Of a stretch of DNA of 64,000 bases, positions 29,766-43,684 are shown one piece after another. The notes beneath the pieces are model-generated. The model ran no database searches, was not told where the DNA came from, and saw nothing but the letters and a program-made list of their open reading frames with translations. The DNA is taken from assembly GCA_021324615.1 (NCBI GenBank), contig JAJPIT010000113.1, positions 1 to 64,000 on the forward strand, read 5' to 3'. The translations under genes and the position numbers were made by a program. Origin of the DNA: Terriglobia bacterium (GTDB lineage: Bacteria; Acidobacteriota; Terriglobia; Bryobacterales; Bryobacteraceae). Positions within the stretch are counted from its first letter, which is position 1. Every line of letters begins with the position of its first letter.

Positions 29766-30890
29766 ATGGCCACGGCGGCGGATTCGCGGGAGAAGGATCT
29801 GGAGCAGCTCAAGGCGCTCTTCCTGGCCAGCCTCAACCACGAAATTCGGACGCCGTTGAGCGGGATTCTCGGCATGGCCGATCTGCTGCTCGAAACACGC
29901 CTGGATGAGGAACAGCGCGAATACGTACAGGCGGCCCGGCTCTGCGCCGAAAACCTGTTCGAAATTTTGAACGCGGCGCTCGAATATTCGGCGCTCGAAG
30001 CCGGCCGCGTTTCCCTCGATGAGAGCGAATTCAGTTTAAAGGAAGCGCTCGAAGCCGCGCTGGCCCAGCATGAGCCGCGGGCCCGGGCCAAGGGGATCCG
30101 CGTAATCTCGACTCTGGCGGCGAACCTGCCCGAAGTGATCCTCGGCGACGCCCCCCGGCTGCGCGAGCTGGTGAGCCATCTGCTCTCCAATGCCGTGAAG
30201 TTCACGCATCGCGGCTCGGTGGAGCTGCGCGCCTTTCCCGACTCGCCCAACACGCTGGTGATTGAGGTGGCCGACACCGGAATTGGAATTCCACCCGATC
30301 GCGTGAGCCTGATCTTCGACTCGTTTCGCCAGGTGGAAAGCGGCCTGGCGCGCCGCTATCCGGGACTCGGCCTGGGTCTGTGCGTGGTGCGCAAGCTGGT
30401 TTCGCTGATGAACGGATCCATCGAGGTGCGGAGTGTGCTGGAGGAAGGCTCGACGTTCACCGTGCGGCTGCCGCTGCGCCTGCCCGAGCCCCCCGCCGAA
30501 GCGCCGGCGGCCGGGGCCAGCCCGCGGATTCTGGCGGTGGACGATAATCCGGTCAGCATGACCGTCCTTCGCCACACGCTGGAGCGCCGGCGGCTTGGCG
30601 TGGACTGCGCGGCCTCCGCCGCAGAAGCCCTGGCGGCGGCGGCCCGGCGCCGCTACGATCTGGTGCTGATGGATCTGCACATGCCCGGCATGGATGGACT
30701 CCAGGCGACGGCCGCCCTGCGGCGCCTGCCCGGCTACGAATCGGTCCCGATCCTCGCGCTGACCGCCAACTCCGACGACGAGGTCCGGCGGCGCTGCCGC
30801 GAAGCGGGCATGCAGGCCTTCCTGGTCAAGCCGGTGGTACCGAACGATCTGCTCGCGGCCGTCGGGCGCTTTTTGAAGAACGCGACGTAA
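29766..30890 (+). CDS. Hybrid histidine kinase without a sensor domain
   Basis: 374 aa and soluble. HisKA begins almost at the N terminus ([23 protein letters not shown], His25). The HATPase domain follows (N box [17 protein letters not shown]1 [12 protein letters not shown]2 [15 protein letters not shown]). A receiver domain occupies ~255-372, with phospho-acceptor Asp303 in [10 protein letters not shown] and the ALTANSDD / LVKPV signals. No PAS, GAF or membrane segment is present, so the input must come from a partner or from the receiver itself. Confidence 0.9.
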
Positions 30891-30896
30891 AAAACT

Positions 30897-31343
30897 TCAG
30901 CCGGCGATCCGGATCAGCCGCGCCGCCATCTTCTTCCGCGCGCCGCCCGCCAGCAGGTCCTCTAGGGTATAGCGGTTCAGCGCCGCAAGCAGTGCCGCCA
31001 GAGCTTCCTCAAGCACCGGCCGGAGGGTGCAAACCGGCGTCAGAACGCAGCGATTGGAGGCGCGATTGAAACACTCCGCCAGCCGCATCTGGGGCTCGGC
31101 GTCGCGCACCACGTCGCCTAAGCGGATCAATCCGGGAGGCCTGGCCAGCGCGATCCCGCCGCCGCGACCCGGCGTCGCCGCCAGATATCCGTGCTCGGCG
31201 AGCGTTTTGACGACGCGCACCAGATGGTGTTTGGAAATGCGGTAGGCCGAGCTGATCTCCCGCGTGGACGACGGGTTCCCCTGGCGCGCCCCGAGATACA
31301 GCAGCACGCGCAGCGCATATTCGGAATGAAGCGTGAGCTGCAT
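30897..31343 (-). CDS. nsrR: Rrf2-family NsrR-like transcriptional regulator
   Basis: 148 aa from ATG 31343 (a start 9 bases upstream is possible). MQLTLHSEYALRVLLYLGAR and the winged-helix segment SSAYRISKHHLVRVVKTLAEHGYLAATPGRGGGIALA are Rrf2-type. Cysteines at 91, 99 and 105 (CF, RCV, VCTL) correspond to the Fe-S cluster ligands of NsrR. Position 8, Asp in characterised NsrR, is Glu here. NsrR represses nitrosative-stress genes until NO destroys its cluster. The start overlaps the upstream gene by TAATG, and a consensus-like NsrR operator precedes that gene. Confidence 0.83.
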   Translation of the reverse strand: MQLTLHSEYALRVLLYLGARQGNPSSTREISSAYRISKHHLVRVVKTLAEHGYLAATPGRGGGIALARPPGLIRLGDVVRDAEPQMRLAECFNRASNRCVLTPVCTLRPVLEEALAALLAALNRYTLEDLLAGGARKKMAARLIRIAG

Positions 31344-32605
31344 TATTTCCAATAGGCCGGCAGATCGTGTTTGGTGTCGCGGACGATTTCAATGATGGCG
31401 CGCCGGTCCTCGGCGGAGATGCGCGACGGCGTTTTGCCCGTCAGCGCGTCATACAGCCCCTGATAGACGCTTTCTTTGGCCAGGGGCGGAAGCGCGTCGA
31501 AAAGGCCGCTGTAGATCATATAGCTCAACGGATAACGGAACATGCGCGTGCGCAGATCGAAGTCGCGCAGGGAGCGGCCCTGCTTATCGCGCGGGCCGCG
31601 CTGCGGAAAGGTTTTGGTGAACGTCGAGACGCCCTCCACCGGATCGTACATCTTGGCCTCGTTCTCAAAAAGCATGTAGCTCACCAGTTGGTCCGTGATC
31701 ATTTTCAGGCGATTCTGTTTGAACTCCCCGGTCTTGCCGTCGTGCTCGGCGATTCTGGTTTCCCATTGCAGCCGGATAAGCAGATTGTTGACCCGCGTCT
31801 GATGCTCGATGGTCATCAGCGCGACGATGTCGCTGGTCGGCTGGGGATATTGCGAAAGATCGAAGCGCCCGCGCAGGCTGGTCAGGTTCTGGGTGTCGCG
31901 GTATTCGAGCACGCTCGGCTGATCGGCGCGCGGCGCCACCGCATTGGCGCGCGACTGCATCTGGCCCGCCGTGCCCGTTACGTACCATCCGCCCCAGCGG
32001 TCGTCGAAGGGCGTGCGGCTATCCACCATCAGGGCCTGAGCCGCGAAACGCGGCGCGCCGTCCGGCCCGGGTATCACGGAGGTGATCTCCAGCCCCGGAA
32101 CGTTCAACGTGCCCGGGATCATGTGGCACTGCATGCATTCCATCGTCCGGCGCAGGAACTGCGGCCTGGCCGTCTTTTCCCGCTCCAGGGTGTAGAATTC
32201 GAGGCCTTGCTGGGGATCGGTGGCGATCACTTCCATCACGTCGCCCTCGGGCACGTATCCCACCGCGGCATCGTCGCTGAAATAAAGGGCCCGCGGCGAT
32301 TTGGGCGAGATTTTCGGCCCCTGAAAACTGGTTTTGGAAAATACCAGCATCTGCGAATCGGGGTTGATGCCGAGGTGCTTTAACAGGCTCGGCAGATATC
32401 CGAACCGCGCATCGTAGTCGAGCTTGGTTTTGCCCTGATCGATCTCCGCCTGCAAGCGCGTGACGGCGTCCTCCGGCGCGCGCTTTTCGTATTGAATCGC
32501 CGGATGATCGAAAGGCAAATAGGGAAAATCGAACGCGTCGTCGTGCGCCGCCGCTCCGGCGCAAGCGGCGAAAAAAGCGGCGCAGGCCAGCCACTTAAGT
32601 TGCAT
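31343..32605 (-). CDS. Exported mono-heme c-type protein of unknown family
   Basis: 420 aa with a signal peptide (MQLKWLACAAFFAACAGAAA). One CxxCH heme-attachment motif, CMQCH at 157-161, lies in the middle of the chain, not in a normal cytochrome c domain. Conserved-looking surroundings are IPGTLNVPGLEITSVIPG and DDRWGGWYVTGTAG. No further Cys pair is obvious. It is probably periplasmic. The nsrR-like gene starts on its stop codon and an NsrR-type site overlaps its start codon, suggesting an NO-related function. The biochemical role is not known to me. Confidence 0.75.
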   Translation of the reverse strand: MQLKWLACAAFFAACAGAAAHDDAFDFPYLPFDHPAIQYEKRAPEDAVTRLQAEIDQGKTKLDYDARFGYLPSLLKHLGINPDSQMLVFSKTSFQGPKISPKSPRALYFSDDAAVGYVPEGDVMEVIATDPQQGLEFYTLEREKTARPQFLRRTMECMQCHMIPGTLNVPGLEITSVIPGPDGAPRFAAQALMVDSRTPFDDRWGGWYVTGTAGQMQSRANAVAPRADQPSVLEYRDTQNLTSLRGRFDLSQYPQPTSDIVALMTIEHQTRVNNLLIRLQWETRIAEHDGKTGEFKQNRLKMITDQLVSYMLFENEAKMYDPVEGVSTFTKTFPQRGPRDKQGRSLRDFDLRTRMFRYPLSYMIYSGLFDALPPLAKESVYQGLYDALTGKTPSRISAEDRRAIIEIVRDTKHDLPAYWK

Positions 32606-32619
32606 CTTAAATGCATCTT
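32597..32619 (-). promoter_or_regulatory. NsrR-type operator over the promoter and start of the heme-protein gene
   Basis: On the + strand the right half is AAATGCATCTT (32609-32619), identical to the 11-base NsrR half-site, and the left half AAGTTGCATCT (32597-32607) matches AAGATGCATTT at 9 of 11 positions, with the usual one-base spacer. On the minus strand it overlaps an extended -10, TGATAAGAT (32615-32623), and the ATG at 32605, so transcripts would have almost no leader. This predicts autorepression of the heme protein-nsrR pair. Confidence 0.72.
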
Positions 32620-34134: not shown

Positions 34135-35106
34135 ATGACAGATACGCCCAGCAAGAAGATTATCCTGTTGACGCCACGGGGGTTCTGCGCTGGCGTGGTG
34201 CGCGCGATCGATGTGGTGAAGATCGCGCTCAATCTCTATGGCGCTCCCATCTACGTGCGCAAGGAGATCGTTCATAACCGCCACGTGGTGGACGAATTAC
34301 GCGGCGCCGGAGCCATTTTTGTCGAGGAGCTGGACGAGGTTCCCGAAGGCGCGCGGGTGATTTTCAGCGCCCACGGCGTGTCGCCGGCGGTGCGCGCTCA
34401 GGCCAAGCAGCGGCGGCTGCAAGTGATCGACGCCACCTGCCCGCTGGTCACCAAGGTTCATCTGGAGGCGGTCAAATTCGCCAAAAAGGGCTACACGATC
34501 GTTCTGATCGGGCATAAGGACCACGACGAGGTCATCGGCACGCTGGGCGAGGCGCCGGAGTCGACCGTACTGGTATCGACCGTGGAGGACGTCGATCGCC
34601 TGGAGGTCCGCGATCCCACGCGCGTTTCTTTTATCACGCAGACGACGCTCAGTTTGGATGAAACCAAAGACATCGTCGACCGGCTCCGGCAGCGATTTCC
34701 GGAGATCCAGGGACCGGCCGCCCAGGATATTTGCTACGCCACCGAGAACCGCCAGCTTGCGGTAAAGGCGGTGGTTCCGTTGTGCGAGGTGTTGCTGGTG
34801 GTCGGCTCCCAAAACAGCTCCAATTCGCGGCGGCTGGTGGAGGTTTGCGAGAAAACCGGCGTACCCGCCTATTTGATCGATGATTTGCGCGAGGTCCGGC
34901 CGGAGTGGCTGGACGGGGTGCGGACGGTCGCGGTCACCGCGGGAGCTTCCGCGCCGGAGAATCTGGTTCAGGAACTGATCGGGTCGCTCAAGGAGCGCGG
35001 CTTCAGCGAGTTGGAAGAGATGGAAATCAAGGAAGAAGACGTCAGATTCCATCTTCCGTCGGAACTGGCCAAGACGGTGCAACTGCAAGCCGCGCCGCGT
35101 CTATGA
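34135..35106 (+). CDS. ispH: 4-hydroxy-3-methylbut-2-enyl diphosphate reductase
   Basis: 323 aa. The three Fe-S cysteines are Cys18 (PRGFCAGV), Cys102 (DATCPLV) and Cys200 (DICYATENRQ), with the proton-relay TENRQ and the VGSQNSSNS and TAGASAPENLV substrate loops. It reduces HMBPP to IPP and DMAPP, the last MEP-pathway step. It stands at the head of the hopanoid operon 37 bases before shc, directly coupling precursor supply to triterpenoid synthesis. Confidence 0.96.
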   Translation: MTDTPSKKIILLTPRGFCAGVVRAIDVVKIALNLYGAPIYVRKEIVHNRHVVDELRGAGAIFVEELDEVPEGARVIFSAHGVSPAVRAQAKQRRLQVIDATCPLVTKVHLEAVKFAKKGYTIVLIGHKDHDEVIGTLGEAPESTVLVSTVEDVDRLEVRDPTRVSFITQTTLSLDETKDIVDRLRQRFPEIQGPAAQDICYATENRQLAVKAVVPLCEVLLVVGSQNSSNSRRLVEVCEKTGVPAYLIDDLREVRPEWLDGVRTVAVTAGASAPENLVQELIGSLKERGFSELEEMEIKEEDVRFHLPSELAKTVQLQAAPRL

Positions 35107-35143
35107 GGATGCAGAGGGCGGCGCGCGCCGCGGCGGGACGTTT

Positions 35144-37060
35144 ATGAGCCCTGGCGTACAGATCGCGGATCCATTGGTGAGCGCCTGCGCCGAGGCGCAG
35201 CGGCGGGCGGTCAACTATCTGCTCGGGCTGCAACACCCCGACGGCTACTGGTGGGCGGATCTCACCGCCGACACCACCCTCGAATCGGATTTTATTCTGC
35301 TCGAACTGTGGCGCCACCCGCCGGTGAACGGCGTCTGGAACCCCCCCACCCGGGAGTTGATCGGCAAAGCGGCGCGGTCGATCCTGGAACGGCAGTTGCC
35401 CGATGGCGGATTCAATATTTACGCCGAAGGTCCATCGGAGCTCAATGCGACCATCAAGGCGTACACGGCCTTAAAACTGGCCGGGGTGTCCGAACACGAT
35501 CCCAGCCTGGCGCGGGCGCGGGAGCGTATTCTGTCGCTCGGGGGATTGCAGCGCGCCAACTCCTACGTCAAGGTCAATCTGAGCCTGTTCGGCCTCTATC
35601 CGCGCGAGCATACTCCGTCGATTCCGCCGGAGCTGATGCTGCTCGGCAACTTTATCTACGAGATGTCGAGCTGGACGCGCGCCATCGTGATCCCGCTCTC
35701 GATCGTGCACGCGATGAATCCGCGGCGGCCGGTTCCGGCCGGATTTTCGCTGAACGAACTGTTCAAGCCCGGCGAGCCGTTCGAATTTCCCAATAACGAA
35801 GGTTTTTTTAGCTGGCGGAATTTCTTCCTGAAAGCCGACAAGCTGTTCAAATTCGCCGAAAAACGGATGTGGCGCGGGCTGCGGACCGCAGCCATCCGCC
35901 GCGCCGAACGGTGGATGCTGGAGCGCACCCGCTACACCGACGGCCTGGCGGCGATCTATCCGCCCATGATGTACGTCATCATGGCGCTGGACCTTTTGGG
36001 CTATCCCAAGGATCATCCCGACGTGAAGGAAGCCGAACGCCAGTTCTTCAATCTGCTGGTGAATGACGAGCGCGGCTTCTACTTCCAGCCTTGTTTTTCG
36101 GTGGTCTGGGATACCGCGATCGCGGCGTTCGCCTTGGGCGAATCAAAGCTGGCTCCCGCCGGCGCCTTGACCCGCTCCGCCGACTGGCTGCTGGCCAAGG
36201 AAGTGCGGCGCCGCGGCGACTGGAGCGTGAAGCGCCCCAACGTCCCGCCCTCGGGCTGGTATTTCGAGTTCGCCAACGAATGGTATCCCGATATCGACGA
36301 CACGGCCCAGGTCCTGCTGGCGTTGAGCCGCACCCGCGCATCGAGCGGGCACGACGCCTGCGTGCAGCGCGCCCTGACCTGGCTGCTGGCGATGCAGTCC
36401 AGGGACGGAGGCTGGGCGGCGTTCGACGTCGATAACAACTGGCAGTCGCTCAGCGCGGTTCCCTTCGCGGACCATAACGCGATGCTCGATCCGACTTGCC
36501 CGGATATTACCGGACGCGTTCTGGAAGGGCTGATCGCCTCGGGCCTGGAGCCGGGCCACGCCGCCATCCGGCGCGGAGTCGCTTATCTGAAGCGGGCGCA
36601 GGAGGCCGATGGAAGCTGGTACGGGCGCTGGGGCGTCGATTATATTTATGGCACCTGCTTCGCCCTGCGCGGGCTGCGGGCGGCCGGGGAGAACGATCGC
36701 GAGGCCTACATTTTGCGCGCCGGCGAGTGGCTGCGGTCGATTCAAAACGCTGACGGCGGCTGGGGCGAGAGCTGCGCTTCCTACGATCGGAAGACGTTTG
36801 TTCCCGCCGAATCGACTCCCTCGCAGACCGCCTGGGCGATCTGCGGGCTGATCGCCGGCGGCGACACCACCAGCAACAGCCTGCACAAAGGAATCGAGTA
36901 CCTGATCGAGACGCAGCGCAAAGACGGCGGATGGGATGAGAAATTGTCCACCGGAACCGGCTTTCCCGGCGTCTTTTATCTGAAATATCACTACTACCGA
37001 CATTCGTTTCCGGTCCTGGCTTTATCGGACTATTTGAGAACGAGAAATGGGGCCAAATGA
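35144..37060 (+). CDS. shc: Squalene-hopene cyclase
   Basis: 638 aa, the normal length. The catalytic acid motif DIDD is at 383-386 (YPDIDDTAQVLLAL). QW repeats are seen as QHPDGYWWADL, QSRDGGWAAFDVDNNW, QEADGSWYGRW, QNADGGWGES and QRKDGGWDE. The alpha-barrel membrane protein cyclises squalene to hopene/hopanol. It overlaps hpnH by 4 bases (ATGA). Confidence 0.97.
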   Translation: MSPGVQIADPLVSACAEAQRRAVNYLLGLQHPDGYWWADLTADTTLESDFILLELWRHPPVNGVWNPPTRELIGKAARSILERQLPDGGFNIYAEGPSELNATIKAYTALKLAGVSEHDPSLARARERILSLGGLQRANSYVKVNLSLFGLYPREHTPSIPPELMLLGNFIYEMSSWTRAIVIPLSIVHAMNPRRPVPAGFSLNELFKPGEPFEFPNNEGFFSWRNFFLKADKLFKFAEKRMWRGLRTAAIRRAERWMLERTRYTDGLAAIYPPMMYVIMALDLLGYPKDHPDVKEAERQFFNLLVNDERGFYFQPCFSVVWDTAIAAFALGESKLAPAGALTRSADWLLAKEVRRRGDWSVKRPNVPPSGWYFEFANEWYPDIDDTAQVLLALSRTRASSGHDACVQRALTWLLAMQSRDGGWAAFDVDNNWQSLSAVPFADHNAMLDPTCPDITGRVLEGLIASGLEPGHAAIRRGVAYLKRAQEADGSWYGRWGVDYIYGTCFALRGLRAAGENDREAYILRAGEWLRSIQNADGGWGESCASYDRKTFVPAESTPSQTAWAICGLIAGGDTTSNSLHKGIEYLIETQRKDGGWDEKLSTGTGFPGVFYLKYHYYRHSFPVLALSDYLRTRNGAK

Positions 37061-38169
37061 GAGTTCCGCTGGGGCAGGTCGCCGACATGGCGGCCTATAT
37101 CGCGAAGAATAAACTGCGTCCGAAGCCGGAGTGGCAGCGCAATCTGGCCGCGGACGATTCGGCGAATCCGTTTAAGATCATTCACACGCAGGTTCCCGCG
37201 GCCCGCGCCGGGCGCAAGCCGCATCCGATGATCCACAAACGGTTTCCGCTGGTGATGATGCTGGAACCGCTGCACGCCTGCAATCTGACCTGCACCAGTT
37301 GCGGGCGGATTCGCGAGTACGAATCGACCGTCCGGGAGCGTTTGACGCTGGAGCAATGCCTGCGCGCGGTGGATGAGTGCGGCGCTCCGGTGGTTTCCAT
37401 CTGCGGAGGCGAGCCTTTGCTGTACCCGGAAATCGGCCCGCTGGTGGAGGCGATTTTGAAGCGCGGCAAGTACATTCAGCTTTGCACCAACGGCATGTTC
37501 ATCGCAAAAAAGCTGAAGGAGTTCAAGCCCGACAGCGCCTTCGTCTTCAACGTTCACCTGGACGGAATGGAGAAGAGTCACGATCTGGCGGTGGAACGGC
37601 CGGGCGTGTTTCGCGAGGCGATCGAAGGGGTCAAGGCCGCCAAAGCCGCCGGCTTCAAGGTTTTTTCCAACACCACGGTTTATAAAGAAACCGACATGCG
37701 CGAGATCGAGGAGCTGTTCGAGTACCTGGCGCAGTTCAACGTGGACGGCCACACCATCGCGCCGGCGTACGGATATTCGGCGGTGAACGACCGCGAAATC
37801 TTCCTCACCCGCGAAGATGTGCACGAAAAGTTCAAGTCCATCGATAAGCTCGCGAAAAAATACCCGATCGTGGCCTCGCCCGTGTACATGGAGTTTTTAA
37901 AAGGCGAGCGGGATCTGCCGTGCACCGCCTGGGGCAATCCGACTTATAACGTGAAGGGCTGGAAGGGCCCGTGCTATCTGATCACTGACGCGCATTATCA
38001 GACGTTCGAGGAGCTGATGACGCGGACGCCGTGGGAAAATTACGGTGCGGGAAACGATCCGCGCTGCGCCGATTGCATGGTCCACTGCGGATACGAGCCG
38101 TCGGCGGCCTACGGCATTAATTCGAAGTTCAGCGATCCGTTTAAATCGCTGGCGTGGCTGCTGAGTTAG
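37057..38169 (+). CDS. hpnH: Adenosyl-hopene transferase HpnH (radical SAM)
   Basis: 370 aa. The radical-SAM cluster ligands are Cys75, Cys79 and Cys82 in HACNLTCTSCGRI, with SICGGEPLLYPEI as the GGEP motif. The C-terminal SPASM-like cysteines appear in LPCTAWGNPTYNVKGWKGPCYL and RCADCMVHCGYE. It adds the 5'-deoxyadenosyl group to diploptene to give adenosylhopane, the first step of C35 hopanoid side-chain formation. Confidence 0.96.
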   Translation: MRVPLGQVADMAAYIAKNKLRPKPEWQRNLAADDSANPFKIIHTQVPAARAGRKPHPMIHKRFPLVMMLEPLHACNLTCTSCGRIREYESTVRERLTLEQCLRAVDECGAPVVSICGGEPLLYPEIGPLVEAILKRGKYIQLCTNGMFIAKKLKEFKPDSAFVFNVHLDGMEKSHDLAVERPGVFREAIEGVKAAKAAGFKVFSNTTVYKETDMREIEELFEYLAQFNVDGHTIAPAYGYSAVNDREIFLTREDVHEKFKSIDKLAKKYPIVASPVYMEFLKGERDLPCTAWGNPTYNVKGWKGPCYLITDAHYQTFEELMTRTPWENYGAGNDPRCADCMVHCGYEPSAAYGINSKFSDPFKSLAWLLS

Positions 38170-38176
38170 CGCGCGT

Positions 38177-39148
38177 GTGAAGCCTGTTTTGGTGACCGGC
38201 GCGACGGGGTTCGTCGGATGGCACGTCGCGCGGAAGCTGTTGGACCGCGGCGACCGGGTTCGCGTGCTGGCGCGCGATCCCAAAAGAGTACGCGAGCTGG
38301 AGGGAGCCGAGGTCGCTGCCGGCGACCTGCGCGATCCGGATTCGCTGAAGCAGGCGGCGGCCGGCTGCGGCATCGTCTATCACGTCGCGGCGGATTACCG
38401 GCTGTGGACGCGCGAGCCGCGGGAGATGTTCCGCTCCAACGTGGACGGCACCCGCGCTCTGCTCGATGCCGCCCGCGCCGCCCGAGTCGAGCGGGTGGTA
38501 TATACCAGCACGGTCGGATGCATCGGAATTCCCGCCGGCGGCCTCGGCGATGAGGATACGCCAGTTTCCATCGCGGAGATGAACGGGCCTTACAAGGAAT
38601 CGAAATTCCTGGCTGAGCAGATCGCGCTCCAGACCAGGGATCTACCGGTGGTGATCGTCAACCCGACCGCGCCGATCGGCGACCACGACTTCAAACCGAC
38701 GCCGACCGGAAAGATCGTCGTGGATTTCCTGCGCGGAAAGATGCCGGGATTCGTCGATACGGGTTTGAATGTGGTGGACGTTCGCGACGTCGCCGAGGGG
38801 CACCTGCTGGCTTGCGAGCGCGGGCGCGCGGGGGAGCGGTATATTTTGGGCTCGGAAAATCTGACGCTGGAGCAGATTTTCCGGAAATTGGGGGAAATTG
38901 CGGGCAAAGCGGCGCCGAAAATCCGCGTGCCTTACGCCGTGGCGTATGCCTATGGCGCCGTCTCCACCGCCTGGGCGGGCCTGACCGGGCGCGAGCCGCT
39001 GGCGCCGCTGGACGCGGTGCGAATGGCCCGGAAAAAGATGTGGGTGCGGCATGATAAGGCCGCGCGGGAGCTGGGTTACTCGCCGGGTCCGGCGGAGGCG
39101 GCCCTGAAGCGGGCGGCCGGATGGTTCCGCGCCAATGGCTACTGTTAA
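38177..39148 (+). CDS. hpnA: Hopanoid-associated sugar epimerase HpnA
   Basis: 323 aa, GTG start 7 bases after hpnH. It is an extended SDR: VLVTGATGFVGWHVARKLL binds NAD, and the catalytic Tyr-Lys are in PYKESKFLAEQ. HpnA homologues are hopanoid-operon NAD-dependent epimerase/dehydratases whose exact reaction is not settled. It overlaps hpnG by 14 bases. Confidence 0.93.
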   Translation: MKPVLVTGATGFVGWHVARKLLDRGDRVRVLARDPKRVRELEGAEVAAGDLRDPDSLKQAAAGCGIVYHVAADYRLWTREPREMFRSNVDGTRALLDAARAARVERVVYTSTVGCIGIPAGGLGDEDTPVSIAEMNGPYKESKFLAEQIALQTRDLPVVIVNPTAPIGDHDFKPTPTGKIVVDFLRGKMPGFVDTGLNVVDVRDVAEGHLLACERGRAGERYILGSENLTLEQIFRKLGEIAGKAAPKIRVPYAVAYAYGAVSTAWAGLTGREPLAPLDAVRMARKKMWVRHDKAARELGYSPGPAEAALKRAAGWFRANGYC

Positions 39149-39770
39149 AACGTGGCTGCTGGTGGCCGCCGAGCGCCGCGAGTTTGATGGAATCTTGGAG
39201 CGCTTCGGCGCATCTGAAAGATTAAACTGGCCGCTCGAGTTCGCCCGCCAGGCGTACTATCGGGGCGACCGCTACGTGATGGTCGCCCATGGCCCGGGCC
39301 GGAGGTTGGTCGAAAAAGCTTTGGAGAAAAGAATCGACGTGGATGGGATCGTCAGCACGGGATTTTGCGGAGCCTTGGATCCGGCTTTGCGGGTGGGCGA
39401 TATTGTCACGGGCGCGGGGGCGATTTATTGCGCGGATCGCGTGATTGTCAGCGCCGCCGAAAAGCGCGCGCTGCGGGAAAGAACCGGCGCGGCGGCCGTC
39501 GATATGGAATCGGCCGCCGTGGCGGAGAAGGCCGCCCAATGGGGCGTGCCGTTTCATGCCATCCGCGCCGTCTCCGACGCCGCCGGCGAGGATATGCCGC
39601 TCGATTTCAATTTATACCGGGACCAGGACGGCCGCTTTTCGCGGGGACGCATTGCGCTGGCGGCGCTGGCCCGGCCTTTTGCGCGGGTTCCGGCTTTGCT
39701 ACGCTTGGATCGCAACGCCAGGATCGCCGCGCGATCGTTAGGGGATTATTTTGCTGACTGCCGACTCTAG
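39135..39770 (+). CDS. hpnG: Hopanoid-associated nucleosidase HpnG
   Basis: 211 aa. The nucleoside phosphorylase-like fold is shown by VSTGFCGALDPALRVGDIV and the ribose-binding AVDMESAAVAEKAAQ. HpnG cleaves adenine from adenosylhopane, giving ribosylhopane or its phosphate, which is then reduced to bacteriohopanetetrol. It sits between hpnA and two dehydrogenases. Confidence 0.93.
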   Translation: MATVKTWLLVAAERREFDGILERFGASERLNWPLEFARQAYYRGDRYVMVAHGPGRRLVEKALEKRIDVDGIVSTGFCGALDPALRVGDIVTGAGAIYCADRVIVSAAEKRALRERTGAAAVDMESAAVAEKAAQWGVPFHAIRAVSDAAGEDMPLDFNLYRDQDGRFSRGRIALAALARPFARVPALLRLDRNARIAARSLGDYFADCRL

Positions 39771-39807
39771 CCGCGTCGCCGACCGCGCCGCCCAGACGCC
39801 CCGGCAA

Positions 39808-40890
39808 ATGCGGGCGGCCGTGTATAAAGGCGCGAGCCGGGTCGAAGTGGAGACGCTGCCGGTTCCCGAAATTGCCGCGGGAGAGATCCTGATTCGCGTT
39901 GAAACCTGCGGGATTTGTCACACCGACCTTAAAAAAATCGAGTATGATCTGCTGCCCCCGCCGCGGATTTACGGCCACGAAACCGCCGGCGTGGTGGCGG
40001 CGGTGGGCGAAAATGTGACGCAATACCGGCCCGGGGATCGCGTCGTGGTGTTTCATCACATTCCCTGCGGCCAGTGTTTTTACTGCGAAAAGAAACTTTA
40101 CGCGCAGTGCCCGGTTTATAAAAAAGTGGGCGTGACCGCGGGATACGAGCCGGCCGGCGGCGGTTTCTCGCAGTATGTGCGGGTGATGGACTGGATCGTA
40201 GAGCAGGGCGTCGAGAAGATTCCCGCCGGAGTCTCTTTCGACGCGGCCTGTTTTGTGGAGCCGGTCAATACCTGCCTCAAGGGGGTCAAGCTGATCGATC
40301 CGCAGCCCGGTGATGCGGTCGCGGTCTTGGGCCAGGGCCCCATCGGGCTGATTTTCACCATGATGGTCGCCCGCACCGGCGCCCGGGTCATCGCAACCGA
40401 CACCATGGCGGAGCGGCGCGAGCTGGCCCGGCGGTTCGGCGCCGCGGAAGCCTTCGATCCGCGGGACGAAAATTTCGAAAAAACCGCGCGGGCGATGACC
40501 TCCGGCCGCGGCCTGGACCTGGCGATCGTCGCCGCATCGGCCCAGGGAATCGTGGAGCAGGCGGTGCGGGCGTCGCGGCCGGGCGCGCGAATTTTGCTGT
40601 TTGCGCAGACCTCGCACCAGGAGCGCATCGAGGTTTCCGGCGCCGATGTCTGCATGGGCGAACGGGTTTTGTGCGGCTCCTACAGCGCCAGCGTCGACTT
40701 GCAGCGGGAGTCGGCCGATCTGGTGTTCAGCGGCGCACTGCCGGTCGAAGAGCTGATTTCTCATCGCTTTCCGCTGCCCCGGATCCACGAGGGAATCGAC
40801 CGCGCGTTGCATCCGGACCCGCAATCGTTGAAGATAGTAGTTAAGCCGCAACTCGACTTATCCGAGGACAGTAAAGCGAGGATCAAATGA
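39808..40890 (+). CDS. Zinc-dependent medium-chain dehydrogenase 1 in hopanoid operon
   Basis: About 360 aa from ATG 39808, which fits the family N terminus (MRAAVYKGASRVEVETLPVPEI); a TTG at 39751 with AGGGGA before it is an alternative that would overlap hpnG. Catalytic-zinc residues are CGICHTD and YGHET, structural-zinc cysteines CGQCFYC...AQC, and the Rossmann loop is GQGPIG. It is an alcohol/polyol dehydrogenase of unknown substrate. It overlaps the next dehydrogenase by ATGA and may act on the hopanoid side chain. Confidence 0.88.
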   Translation: MRAAVYKGASRVEVETLPVPEIAAGEILIRVETCGICHTDLKKIEYDLLPPPRIYGHETAGVVAAVGENVTQYRPGDRVVVFHHIPCGQCFYCEKKLYAQCPVYKKVGVTAGYEPAGGGFSQYVRVMDWIVEQGVEKIPAGVSFDAACFVEPVNTCLKGVKLIDPQPGDAVAVLGQGPIGLIFTMMVARTGARVIATDTMAERRELARRFGAAEAFDPRDENFEKTARAMTSGRGLDLAIVAASAQGIVEQAVRASRPGARILLFAQTSHQERIEVSGADVCMGERVLCGSYSASVDLQRESADLVFSGALPVEELISHRFPLPRIHEGIDRALHPDPQSLKIVVKPQLDLSEDSKARIK

Positions 40891-41930
40891 GCCAGCACAT
40901 GACGGCTGCGGTGCTGTATGGAAAGGAGCACTTGCAGATCGAGCGGGTCGACGTGCCCCGCATCGGGCCCGGCGACGTGCTGGTGCGTGTGCGGGCGGCG
41001 TTAACCTGCGGCACCGACGTGAAGGTTTTCCGCCGCGGATATCATGCGCGGATGATCGTCCCGCCGGCGCTGTTCGGGCATGAGCTGGCCGGCGATATCG
41101 TCGAAATGGGCGCGGAGGTGCGCGGATTCCGGCTCGGCCAGCGCGTGGTGGCGGCCAATTCGGCCCCTTGCGGGGAGTGTTTTTTTTGCCGGCGCGGGCA
41201 GGAAAATCTGTGCGAGGATCTGCTGTTCAACAACGGCGCCTACGCCGAATATATCCGCATTCCGCGACGCATTGTCGAGAAAAATATGTACGAGGTTCCC
41301 GAGCACGTCACCTATCAGGATGCGGCGCTGGTGGAGCCGCTGGCCGGCGTGCTGCGCGGCCTGGAGGAGTCCGGCGTACGCCCGGGCGACAACATCGCCA
41401 TCCTCGGCCTGGGACCCATCGGCATGATGTTTGTCCGCCTTGCCAAGGCGGTCTACGGCGCGCGGGTGATCGCCGTCGGGCGCCGCCAGCCGCAGTTGGA
41501 CCGGGCGCGGAAGATGGGCGCCGATGAAGTGGTCATCAACAGCGAGGGCGCCGACGCGCTCGGCGCGGTGCGCGAGATCACCGGCGGGCGCGGCGCCGAC
41601 GTGGTGATCGAGGCGGTGGGCCTGCCGGAAGTCTGGCAACTGGCCATCCGGATGCTGCGCCGCGGCGGCGTGGTGAATTTTTTCGGGGGCTGCCCGAGCG
41701 GAACCGAAATCCGCCTGGACACCAACCTGCTGCACTATTCCGAATTGACCTGCAAGGCCAGCTTTCATCTCACCCCGGCGCTGATCCGCAAGGCCCTGGA
41801 GATCGTCACACGCGGCTATATTTCGGCCAGGGACCTGGTGAACCGGGTCGAGCCGCTGGCCAATCTGCTCGAGGTGATGCAGCACCTGATGAGCCACAAC
41901 GGACATCTGAAGACGGCGATTATTCCCTAG
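40887..41930 (+). CDS. Zinc-dependent medium-chain dehydrogenase 2 in hopanoid operon
   Basis: 347 aa. It has TCGTDVKVF and FGHELAGDIVEMG (catalytic zinc), CGECFFCRRGQENLC (structural zinc), GLGPIGMMFVRLAKA and VGLPEVW. It resembles sorbitol/threonine-type MDR dehydrogenases that act on polyols or sugars. It differs from its upstream neighbour enough not to be a recent tandem copy. HpnC follows after 3 bases, so it is transcribed inside the hopanoid operon. Confidence 0.88.
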   Translation: MSQHMTAAVLYGKEHLQIERVDVPRIGPGDVLVRVRAALTCGTDVKVFRRGYHARMIVPPALFGHELAGDIVEMGAEVRGFRLGQRVVAANSAPCGECFFCRRGQENLCEDLLFNNGAYAEYIRIPRRIVEKNMYEVPEHVTYQDAALVEPLAGVLRGLEESGVRPGDNIAILGLGPIGMMFVRLAKAVYGARVIAVGRRQPQLDRARKMGADEVVINSEGADALGAVREITGGRGADVVIEAVGLPEVWQLAIRMLRRGGVVNFFGGCPSGTEIRLDTNLLHYSELTCKASFHLTPALIRKALEIVTRGYISARDLVNRVEPLANLLEVMQHLMSHNGHLKTAIIP

Positions 41931-41933
41931 GCC

Positions 41934-42845
41934 GTGTTCCTTCCGCCGGTTGCTTTTCTCCAATCCGACGACGCCAAACGCTGCTGGAAGCTGGACGAAT
42001 CGCTCCGCTACACGCGCTGGCTGGCGACCCATCACTACGAAAATTTTCATGTGGCCAGTTTTCTTCTGCCCCGGCGCCTGCACCAGGATTTTTATAACGT
42101 CTACTCGTTCTGCCGCTGGGCGGACGATCTGGGCGACGAGCTCGGCGACGCCGCCGAAAGCCTGAAGCAGTTGGCCTGGTGGCGCGCGGAGCTGCACCGG
42201 ATGTACGCAGGAGCGGCTTCCCATCCCGTCTTCGTCGCTTTACAGGGAACCGTGGCGCGCCACCAACTGCCGGCCGCGTGCTTCGACGATCTGATCACCG
42301 CCTTCGAGCGCGATCAGGCCAAGACTCGGTATCGCGACTGGGACGAAGTATTGGATTACTGCAAATATTCGGCGAATCCGGTGGGGCGGCTGGTGCTCGG
42401 ACTGTGCGGATATCACGACGCGGAAAGATATGAATTGTCCGATGCCACCTGCACCGCGCTGCAACTTGCCAACTTCTGGCAGGATGTCGCCGTCGATTGG
42501 GAAAAGAACCGCGTCTATCTTCCGCTTCACCTGTTCGAGCGGCACGGCTGCCCGGTCGAAGCCATCCCGCTGAGGCGATGCGATGAGCGCTTCCGCGCGG
42601 TGATGAAAGATGCGGTGGAGCTCGCGCGCGGGTTGTTTTTGAAGGGCCTGCCGCTGGCGGGGATGGTCGGCCGGAGGCTGGCCATCGATGTTGAGCTGTT
42701 CAGCCGCGGCGGGATGAAAGTGCTCGAAAAGATCGAGCGCCAGAATTATAATGTGCTGGCCGCGCGGCCGGCGATCTCCAGGCGGGAGCGGGTCGCTTTG
42801 CTGCTGGGCGCCATCGGCCGCCGGGCATTTTCGCGCGCGGCATGA
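41934..42845 (+). CDS. hpnC: Hydroxysqualene synthase HpnC
   Basis: 303 aa, GTG start 3 bases after the dehydrogenase. The trans-isoprenyl diphosphate synthase fold has two Asp-rich sites: SFCRWADDLGDE near 60 and LANFWQDVAVDWEKNRVYLP near 190. HpnC converts presqualene diphosphate made by HpnD to hydroxysqualene. Overlaps hpnD by ATGA. Confidence 0.94.
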   Translation: MFLPPVAFLQSDDAKRCWKLDESLRYTRWLATHHYENFHVASFLLPRRLHQDFYNVYSFCRWADDLGDELGDAAESLKQLAWWRAELHRMYAGAASHPVFVALQGTVARHQLPAACFDDLITAFERDQAKTRYRDWDEVLDYCKYSANPVGRLVLGLCGYHDAERYELSDATCTALQLANFWQDVAVDWEKNRVYLPLHLFERHGCPVEAIPLRRCDERFRAVMKDAVELARGLFLKGLPLAGMVGRRLAIDVELFSRGGMKVLEKIERQNYNVLAARPAISRRERVALLLGAIGRRAFSRAA

Positions 42846-43684
42846 CTGTTGAGGAGTCCTATGCCTGGTGCCGCCGCCTGGCGCGGTCCCAGGCCCGGAA
42901 TTTTTATTATTCGTTTCTTTTGCTGAGCCGGGAAAAGCGCCGGGCGATGTGCGCCATCTACGCGTTCATGCGCTACTGCGACGATTTGAGCGACGCCGAG
43001 GGCGTCGGCGACCGCGCCGCAGCGATCGCCAAGTGGGAGCAGGACCTGCGCGCCGCCCTCGATGGCGCGCCTCCGGACCATCCGCTGTGGCCGGCCTTCG
43101 CCGACGCGGTGGCGCGCTTCCAGATTCCCCGGCGCTACTTCCTGGAGATGATCAAGGGCGTCCGCTCCGACCTCGCGACCCGCAGGATCCAAACCTTCGA
43201 AGAACTCTACGATTACTGCTATCATGTGGCCAGCGTCGTGGGCCTGACGATCATCCACATTTTTGGGTTCCGCGGGGAGGAATCGCTGGATCTCGCCGAA
43301 AAGTGCGGCATTGCGTTTCAGTTGACCAACATCTTGCGCGATGTCGGCGAGGACGCCGCCCGCGGCCGCGTCTACTTGCCGGCCGAGGATCTTCAAAAAT
43401 TCGGCGTCTCGCCGGAGACGTTCGAGCCGCGCGCGCAGTTTTTAGAACTGATGGCCTTCGAAGCCGGGCGGGCGCGCCGCTATTACCGCGAGTCGGCGCC
43501 GCTGATCGAGCGGATCGACCCTTCCAGCCGGGCTTCGCTGCGCGCGCTGATCGGCATCTACTCGCGTCTGCTGGAGCGGATCGTGGAGTCGAACTACGAT
43601 GTGCTGAAACGGCGCATTCGCGTGCCGGTCTGGGAAAAGATGCGGGTGCTGGCGGCGGCGCGCTGGGGAGTCAAACGCGTATGA
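42842..43684 (+). CDS. hpnD: Presqualene diphosphate synthase HpnD
   Basis: 280 aa. Asp-rich motifs are YAFMRYCDDLSDAE (near 46) and LTNILRDVGEDAARGRVYLP. HpnD condenses two farnesyl diphosphates to presqualene diphosphate. The FAD enzyme HpnE, which would reduce hydroxysqualene to squalene, is not encoded after it or anywhere in the window. Confidence 0.95.
   Translation: MTVEESYAWCRRLARSQARNFYYSFLLLSREKRRAMCAIYAFMRYCDDLSDAEGVGDRAAAIAKWEQDLRAALDGAPPDHPLWPAFADAVARFQIPRRYFLEMIKGVRSDLATRRIQTFEELYDYCYHVASVVGLTIIHIFGFRGEESLDLAEKCGIAFQLTNILRDVGEDAARGRVYLPAEDLQKFGVSPETFEPRAQFLELMAFEAGRARRYYRESAPLIERIDPSSRASLRALIGIYSRLLERIVESNYDVLKRRIRVPVWEKMRVLAAARWGVKRV

Follow-up and report, generated by a model that had tools for sequence, protein, structure and literature searches.

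The window, i.e. the whole stretch of 64,000 nt that was analysed (genome G000, a soil bacterium of the Terriglobia), contains on its minus strand a compact unit of two overlapping genes headed by an operator-like site. Its features are as follows.

30897–31343, minus strand: gene of an NsrR-type Rrf2 regulator of 148 aa, with Cys91, Cys99, Cys105 and Glu8 (Pfam Rrf2, E 7e-33)
31343–31345, minus strand: TAATG stop/start overlap joining the heme-protein and regulator genes (from the sequence)
31343–32605, minus strand: gene of a predicted secreted mono-c-heme protein of 420 aa from an unnamed family, with a signal peptide at about 1–20, CMQCH at 157–161 and an invariant His268 (from the sequence)
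32597–32619, minus strand: NsrR-type operator AAGATGCATTTAAGATGCAACTT over the heme-protein start codon (20/22 to the consensus)

The regulator is encoded from the ATG at 31343 down to position 30900, with a stop codon ending at 30897, and this ATG has one base in common with the TAA stop (31345–31343) of the heme-protein gene; the overlap likely leads to translational coupling of the two genes. An earlier note on this DNA had described a regulator with Cys91/99/105 whose ATG overlaps the stop of a signal-peptide protein with one CxxCH motif, and this description agrees with the sequence in both genes: the product of 420 aa, encoded at 32605–31346, starts with a Sec-type signal (judged by eye) and contains a single CMQCH.

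Membership of the regulator in the Rrf2 family is clear (114 bits against a cut-off of 30 for Pfam PF02082), and its nearest solved relative is NsrR of Streptomyces coelicolor. Phylogenetically, it groups with the NsrR proteins of Escherichia coli and S. coelicolor (a 17-row clade, support 94/90), away from IscR and from the other Rrf2 proteins of the window genome; as branches are long and RirA is absent from this tree, support for the NsrR clade is moderate. The features common to the window unit and these two NsrR systems are the Rrf2 domain, three cysteines, a 23-bp operator, autoregulation (proposed for the window unit) and NO-defence neighbours. Differences concern the score in the NCBIfam NsrR equivalog (100 bits, below the cut-off of 182; the RirA equivalog gives 108.5 bits, below its cut-off of 193), a Cys spacing slightly different from that of E. 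coli NsrR, a target that is an unnamed heme protein, and residue 8. The only cysteines, at positions 91, 99 and 105, are kept in all 15 relatives aligned. Residue 8 is Glu in the three heme-protein-linked regulators and Asp in the other 12, Asp8 being the fourth cluster ligand in S. coelicolor NsrR (PMC9338935). The replacement of Asp8 by Glu8 is conservative, and because of it the wording ‘NsrR-type’ is safer than a strict NsrR assignment. To our knowledge, Asp8 enters no formal definition of NsrR. The regulator is thus termed NsrR-type, and is presumed to carry an Fe–S cluster and to sense NO.

The operator agrees with the NsrR consensus AAGATGCATTTNAAATGCATCTT at 20 of 22 positions when read on the minus strand (32619–32597), as had been stated for the half-sites of this 23-bp site, and fits the published motif gATGyAT-N5-ATrCATc (PMC1274295) with a single departure within the motif core. 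At ≤3 mismatches to the consensus, no chance match arose in 100 shuffles of the window, and the 3.94-Mb assembly has no second such site (reversed-pattern control, 0), with about 3e-5 matches per genome expected from base composition. Since an in-frame TAA lies just upstream, the ATG at 32605, within the operator, is the earliest possible start of the heme protein. Of the position proposed earlier, over the start codon and the −10 element, the first part stands and the second is putative, as a promoter scan found no sigma-70 consensus at the window operon. When 23 genomes of the genus were scanned with the degenerate motif, six had a site ahead of the unit of the orthologous regulator, and one stray match came up in G309; the sites of two more genomes with the regulator are weaker. 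Nothing above 14/22 was found ahead of the other heme-protein paralogs, ahead of the quinol-type NO reductase (qNOR) units or in the intergenic region of G199 (see below).

The pair and its operator recur in related genomes, the outcome that the earlier note had linked to a gene-neighbourhood survey. This recurrence is narrow (three genomes in two lineages): it comprises the window genome, its near-identical sister G306 (L003/L039/L153) and, at ~60% identity, G316 (L040/L119), placed apart from the other two in a gyrB tree. Within the genus, orthologs of the regulator are 49–60% identical, apart from that of the sister (89%). In five other genomes of the genus and in G320 of the same family, the same regulator ortholog closes a unit with the order operator–truncated hemoglobin–2Fe-2S/FAD/NAD reductase–regulator. 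This unit and that of the window share the operator position and occur once per genome, but the former encodes a globin with a dedicated reductase, whereas the latter encodes a secreted c-heme protein and no reductase. The combination of truncated hemoglobin with a Fer2/FAD/NAD reductase (L041–L046 and L140–L145) amounts to a split version of flavohemoglobin. Among 15 well-assembled genomes of the genus (≥90% complete, ≤5% contaminated), truncated hemoglobin is missing in exactly the three, G000, G306 and G316, in which the heme protein occupies its slot, a coincidence with a chance of 1 in 455 if genomes were independent, two of them being sisters. Searches of the three for NO reductase and NirK gave nothing. 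The heme proteins of the pairs fall into a single clade (SH-aLRT 92), and so do the regulators next to them (89/86). A single origin of the pairing, followed by inheritance or transfer, is therefore probable, and the swap between heme protein and truncated hemoglobin may be a single event. In more distant relatives, the regulator neighbours a divergent flavohemoglobin (two genomes), RIC/ScdA (one) or multicopper oxidase genes (one), among them a gene that resembles NirK below the cut-off. As the neighbours of the orthologs are largely NO-defence genes, the NO reading rests on more than the operator.

The partner of the regulator belongs to a family that the earlier note could not name, and profile searches with the protein alone or with a 38-member alignment likewise gave no convincing match in Pfam, NCBIfam, PHROGs or PDB. 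Known heme proteins of NO biology (globins, cytochrome c′ and P460) have no convincing sequence-family match to the window protein or its 37 homologs. One CxxCH is present in every homolog and, with the export signal judged by eye, makes the protein a c-type cytochrome in the broad sense; heme attachment and a periplasmic location are predicted from these features. The CxxCH and His268 are invariant across the 38 aligned sequences, together with Arg105, Glu125, Asp130, Arg203, Trp207 and Glu316, and His268 may serve as the second axial ligand or as a distal residue. Comparison of the window gene with L003 (dN 0.04, dS 0.39) indicates purifying selection. The family is present in 26 of 297 sampled Acidobacteriota genomes, often as several copies, and no relative was found in the plasmid collection. 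An AlphaFold2 model from three sequences is poor (pLDDT 44.5, pTM 0.35) and gives no fold evidence. No description of the family, or of its pairing with the regulator, was found in the literature searched, a coverage that leaves out most subscription papers. A functional likeness exists with cytochrome c′, a periplasmic mono-c-heme cytochrome that binds NO in the context of denitrification. This likeness concerns the working only, since the heme protein has no sequence match to cytochrome c′, is 420 aa long, carries its CxxCH in mid-protein and not at the C terminus, and has the extra invariant His268.

Another link with nitrogen oxides comes from a different Acidobacteriota family (f70), where one clade of homologs, 65–82% identical to the G275 protein, occurs in clusters for N-oxide respiration. 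In G275 and G361, the order is RIC–qNOR–heme protein, all co-directional (L124 and L202). In G358 (L205), the heme-protein gene stands between nosL and nosY in a cluster with nosZ followed by nosD–nosF–nosL–heme protein–nosY. A single island in G359 and G362 (L242 and L243) contains nosZ, nosD, nosF, nosL, nosY, a nitrate-reductase-like enzyme, a ferredoxin and the heme protein, while the qNOR contig of G360 stops where the heme-protein gene is expected. A sixth relative of this clade, in G291, lies outside any N-oxide cluster, and nosZ was not found beyond the cluster of G275. The f70 nos clusters resemble the clade II clusters of Acidobacteriota such as Luteitalea pratensis, with nosZ/D/F/Y and genes for bc-type, Rieske and c-type cytochromes (PMC13122619), but unlike these they also contain the unnamed heme protein. 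Inside the nos island of L242, a protein with a sulfatase-modifying-factor-like domain (PF03781; 10644–11825) adjoins nosY. Elsewhere, in G199 (family f24), a regulator of the NsrR clade is divergent from a pair of multicopper oxidase and heme-protein genes, with no clear operator.

Other contexts prevail among the ~50 homologs examined, most of which lie near PQQ dehydrogenases, in DUF1592/DUF1552/ankyrin clusters, near cupin enzymes or elsewhere, and the family is therefore not dedicated to NO; it is better seen as one of periplasmic redox heme proteins, with at least two branches tied to NO. Pairing with Rrf2 regulators as a property of all homologs was rejected: outside the window clade, a nearby Rrf2 gene is rare, at about chance level, except in G199, where it is NsrR-like. 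NirK was also rejected as a missing partner, none being above the cut-off in 28 genomes. Several paralogs (L103, L105, L106, L107, L114, L117, L120 and L127) lie a few genes from DUF1592-type cytochromes, DUF1552 proteins and ankyrin-repeat proteins. In two different Acidobacteriota families, a multicopper oxidase gene lies directly next to a heme-protein gene (L127, 5654–8498; L134, 5811–8549).

Collectively, the balance of evidence favours an autoregulated NO-response operon, with an NsrR-type repressor and a periplasmic c-heme protein that binds or converts NO. The earlier proposal of an NO-responsive unit gains from the recurring pair and operator, from the classical NO neighbours of the regulator and from the presence of the family in RIC–qNOR and nos clusters. 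Without NO, the repressor, with a presumed Fe–S cluster on Cys91/99/105 and Glu8, would occupy the 23-bp operator that covers the operon start and block expression of the heme-protein gene and of its own gene. Damage of the cluster by NO would lift repression, and the derepressed cell would export the mono-c-heme protein, which would bind or convert NO in the periplasm and take the place held in relatives by truncated hemoglobin and its reductase. NsrR-type regulation of the unit is proposed with fairly high confidence; the NO chemistry of the heme protein is hypothesized. Because an NsrR-type switch is paired with this protein, and relatives of it lie inside clusters for NO and N2O respiration, the unnamed family probably supplies a new kind of NO-handling protein. 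More tentatively, it might represent a new class of periplasmic NO-removing heme proteins (dioxygenase, reductase or high-capacity trap) that takes over the function of hemoglobins within the NsrR-type regulon in some Acidobacteriota and, in others, shields the enzymes that reduce NO and N2O.

Three other explanations were weighed. The heme protein could be a periplasmic electron carrier or redox enzyme of general use, induced by NO in this lineage only in support of respiration or repair and without NO handling of its own. The occurrence of paralogs beside PQQ dehydrogenases, multicopper oxidases, DUF1592-type cytochromes and bc-type complexes is in line with such a function, as is the place of the heme protein among electron-transfer genes in nos islands. 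However, in the window unit it replaces the truncated hemoglobin/reductase pair under the same single operator, and in G275 and G361 its gene comes right after the gene of qNOR, whose family uses quinol and not cytochrome c, so that a carrier without NO handling is unlikely. A role as a new NO-producing nitrite reductase of the periplasm is quite improbable. Relatives with qNOR or nos genes and without NirK above the cut-off would accommodate such an enzyme, and nirK is under NsrR control in Nitrosomonas, with the same predicted for Neisseria (PMC1274295). Yet searches of the window genome gave neither NO reductase nor truncated hemoglobin, and NO production induced by NO would therefore be self-harming; moreover, the phylum includes partial denitrifiers that have neither nirK nor nirS (L. 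pratensis, PMC13122619). Similarly improbable, finally, is an iron or redox sensor of RirA/IscR type with an operator likeness due to shared Rrf2 recognition, for which the slightly higher RirA score and Glu8 could speak, but orthologs with an NsrR-type site flank truncated hemoglobin, flavohemoglobin and RIC genes, and the tree (without RirA) puts the regulator with NsrR.

If the NO-response reading is true, an unnamed family of heme proteins would be added to the few proteins that handle NO. Acidobacteriota rank with the most abundant bacteria in soil, and what they contribute to N2O turnover has received little study (PMC13122619). A direct test of what the heme protein does is made possible by the operator and by the swap with truncated hemoglobin.

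Two minor observations concern the surroundings of the pair. A gene for a histidine kinase/receiver hybrid (29766–30890) converges on the regulator gene, and such a gene adjoins the pair in the sister G306 also, not in G316. Near the pair, on the plus strand (34135–43681), lie genes that by eye resemble ispH, squalene–hopene cyclase and other hopanoid genes; the homolog in L121 is likewise beside squalene–hopene cyclase-like genes, and this hopanoid neighbourhood is possibly a coincidence.
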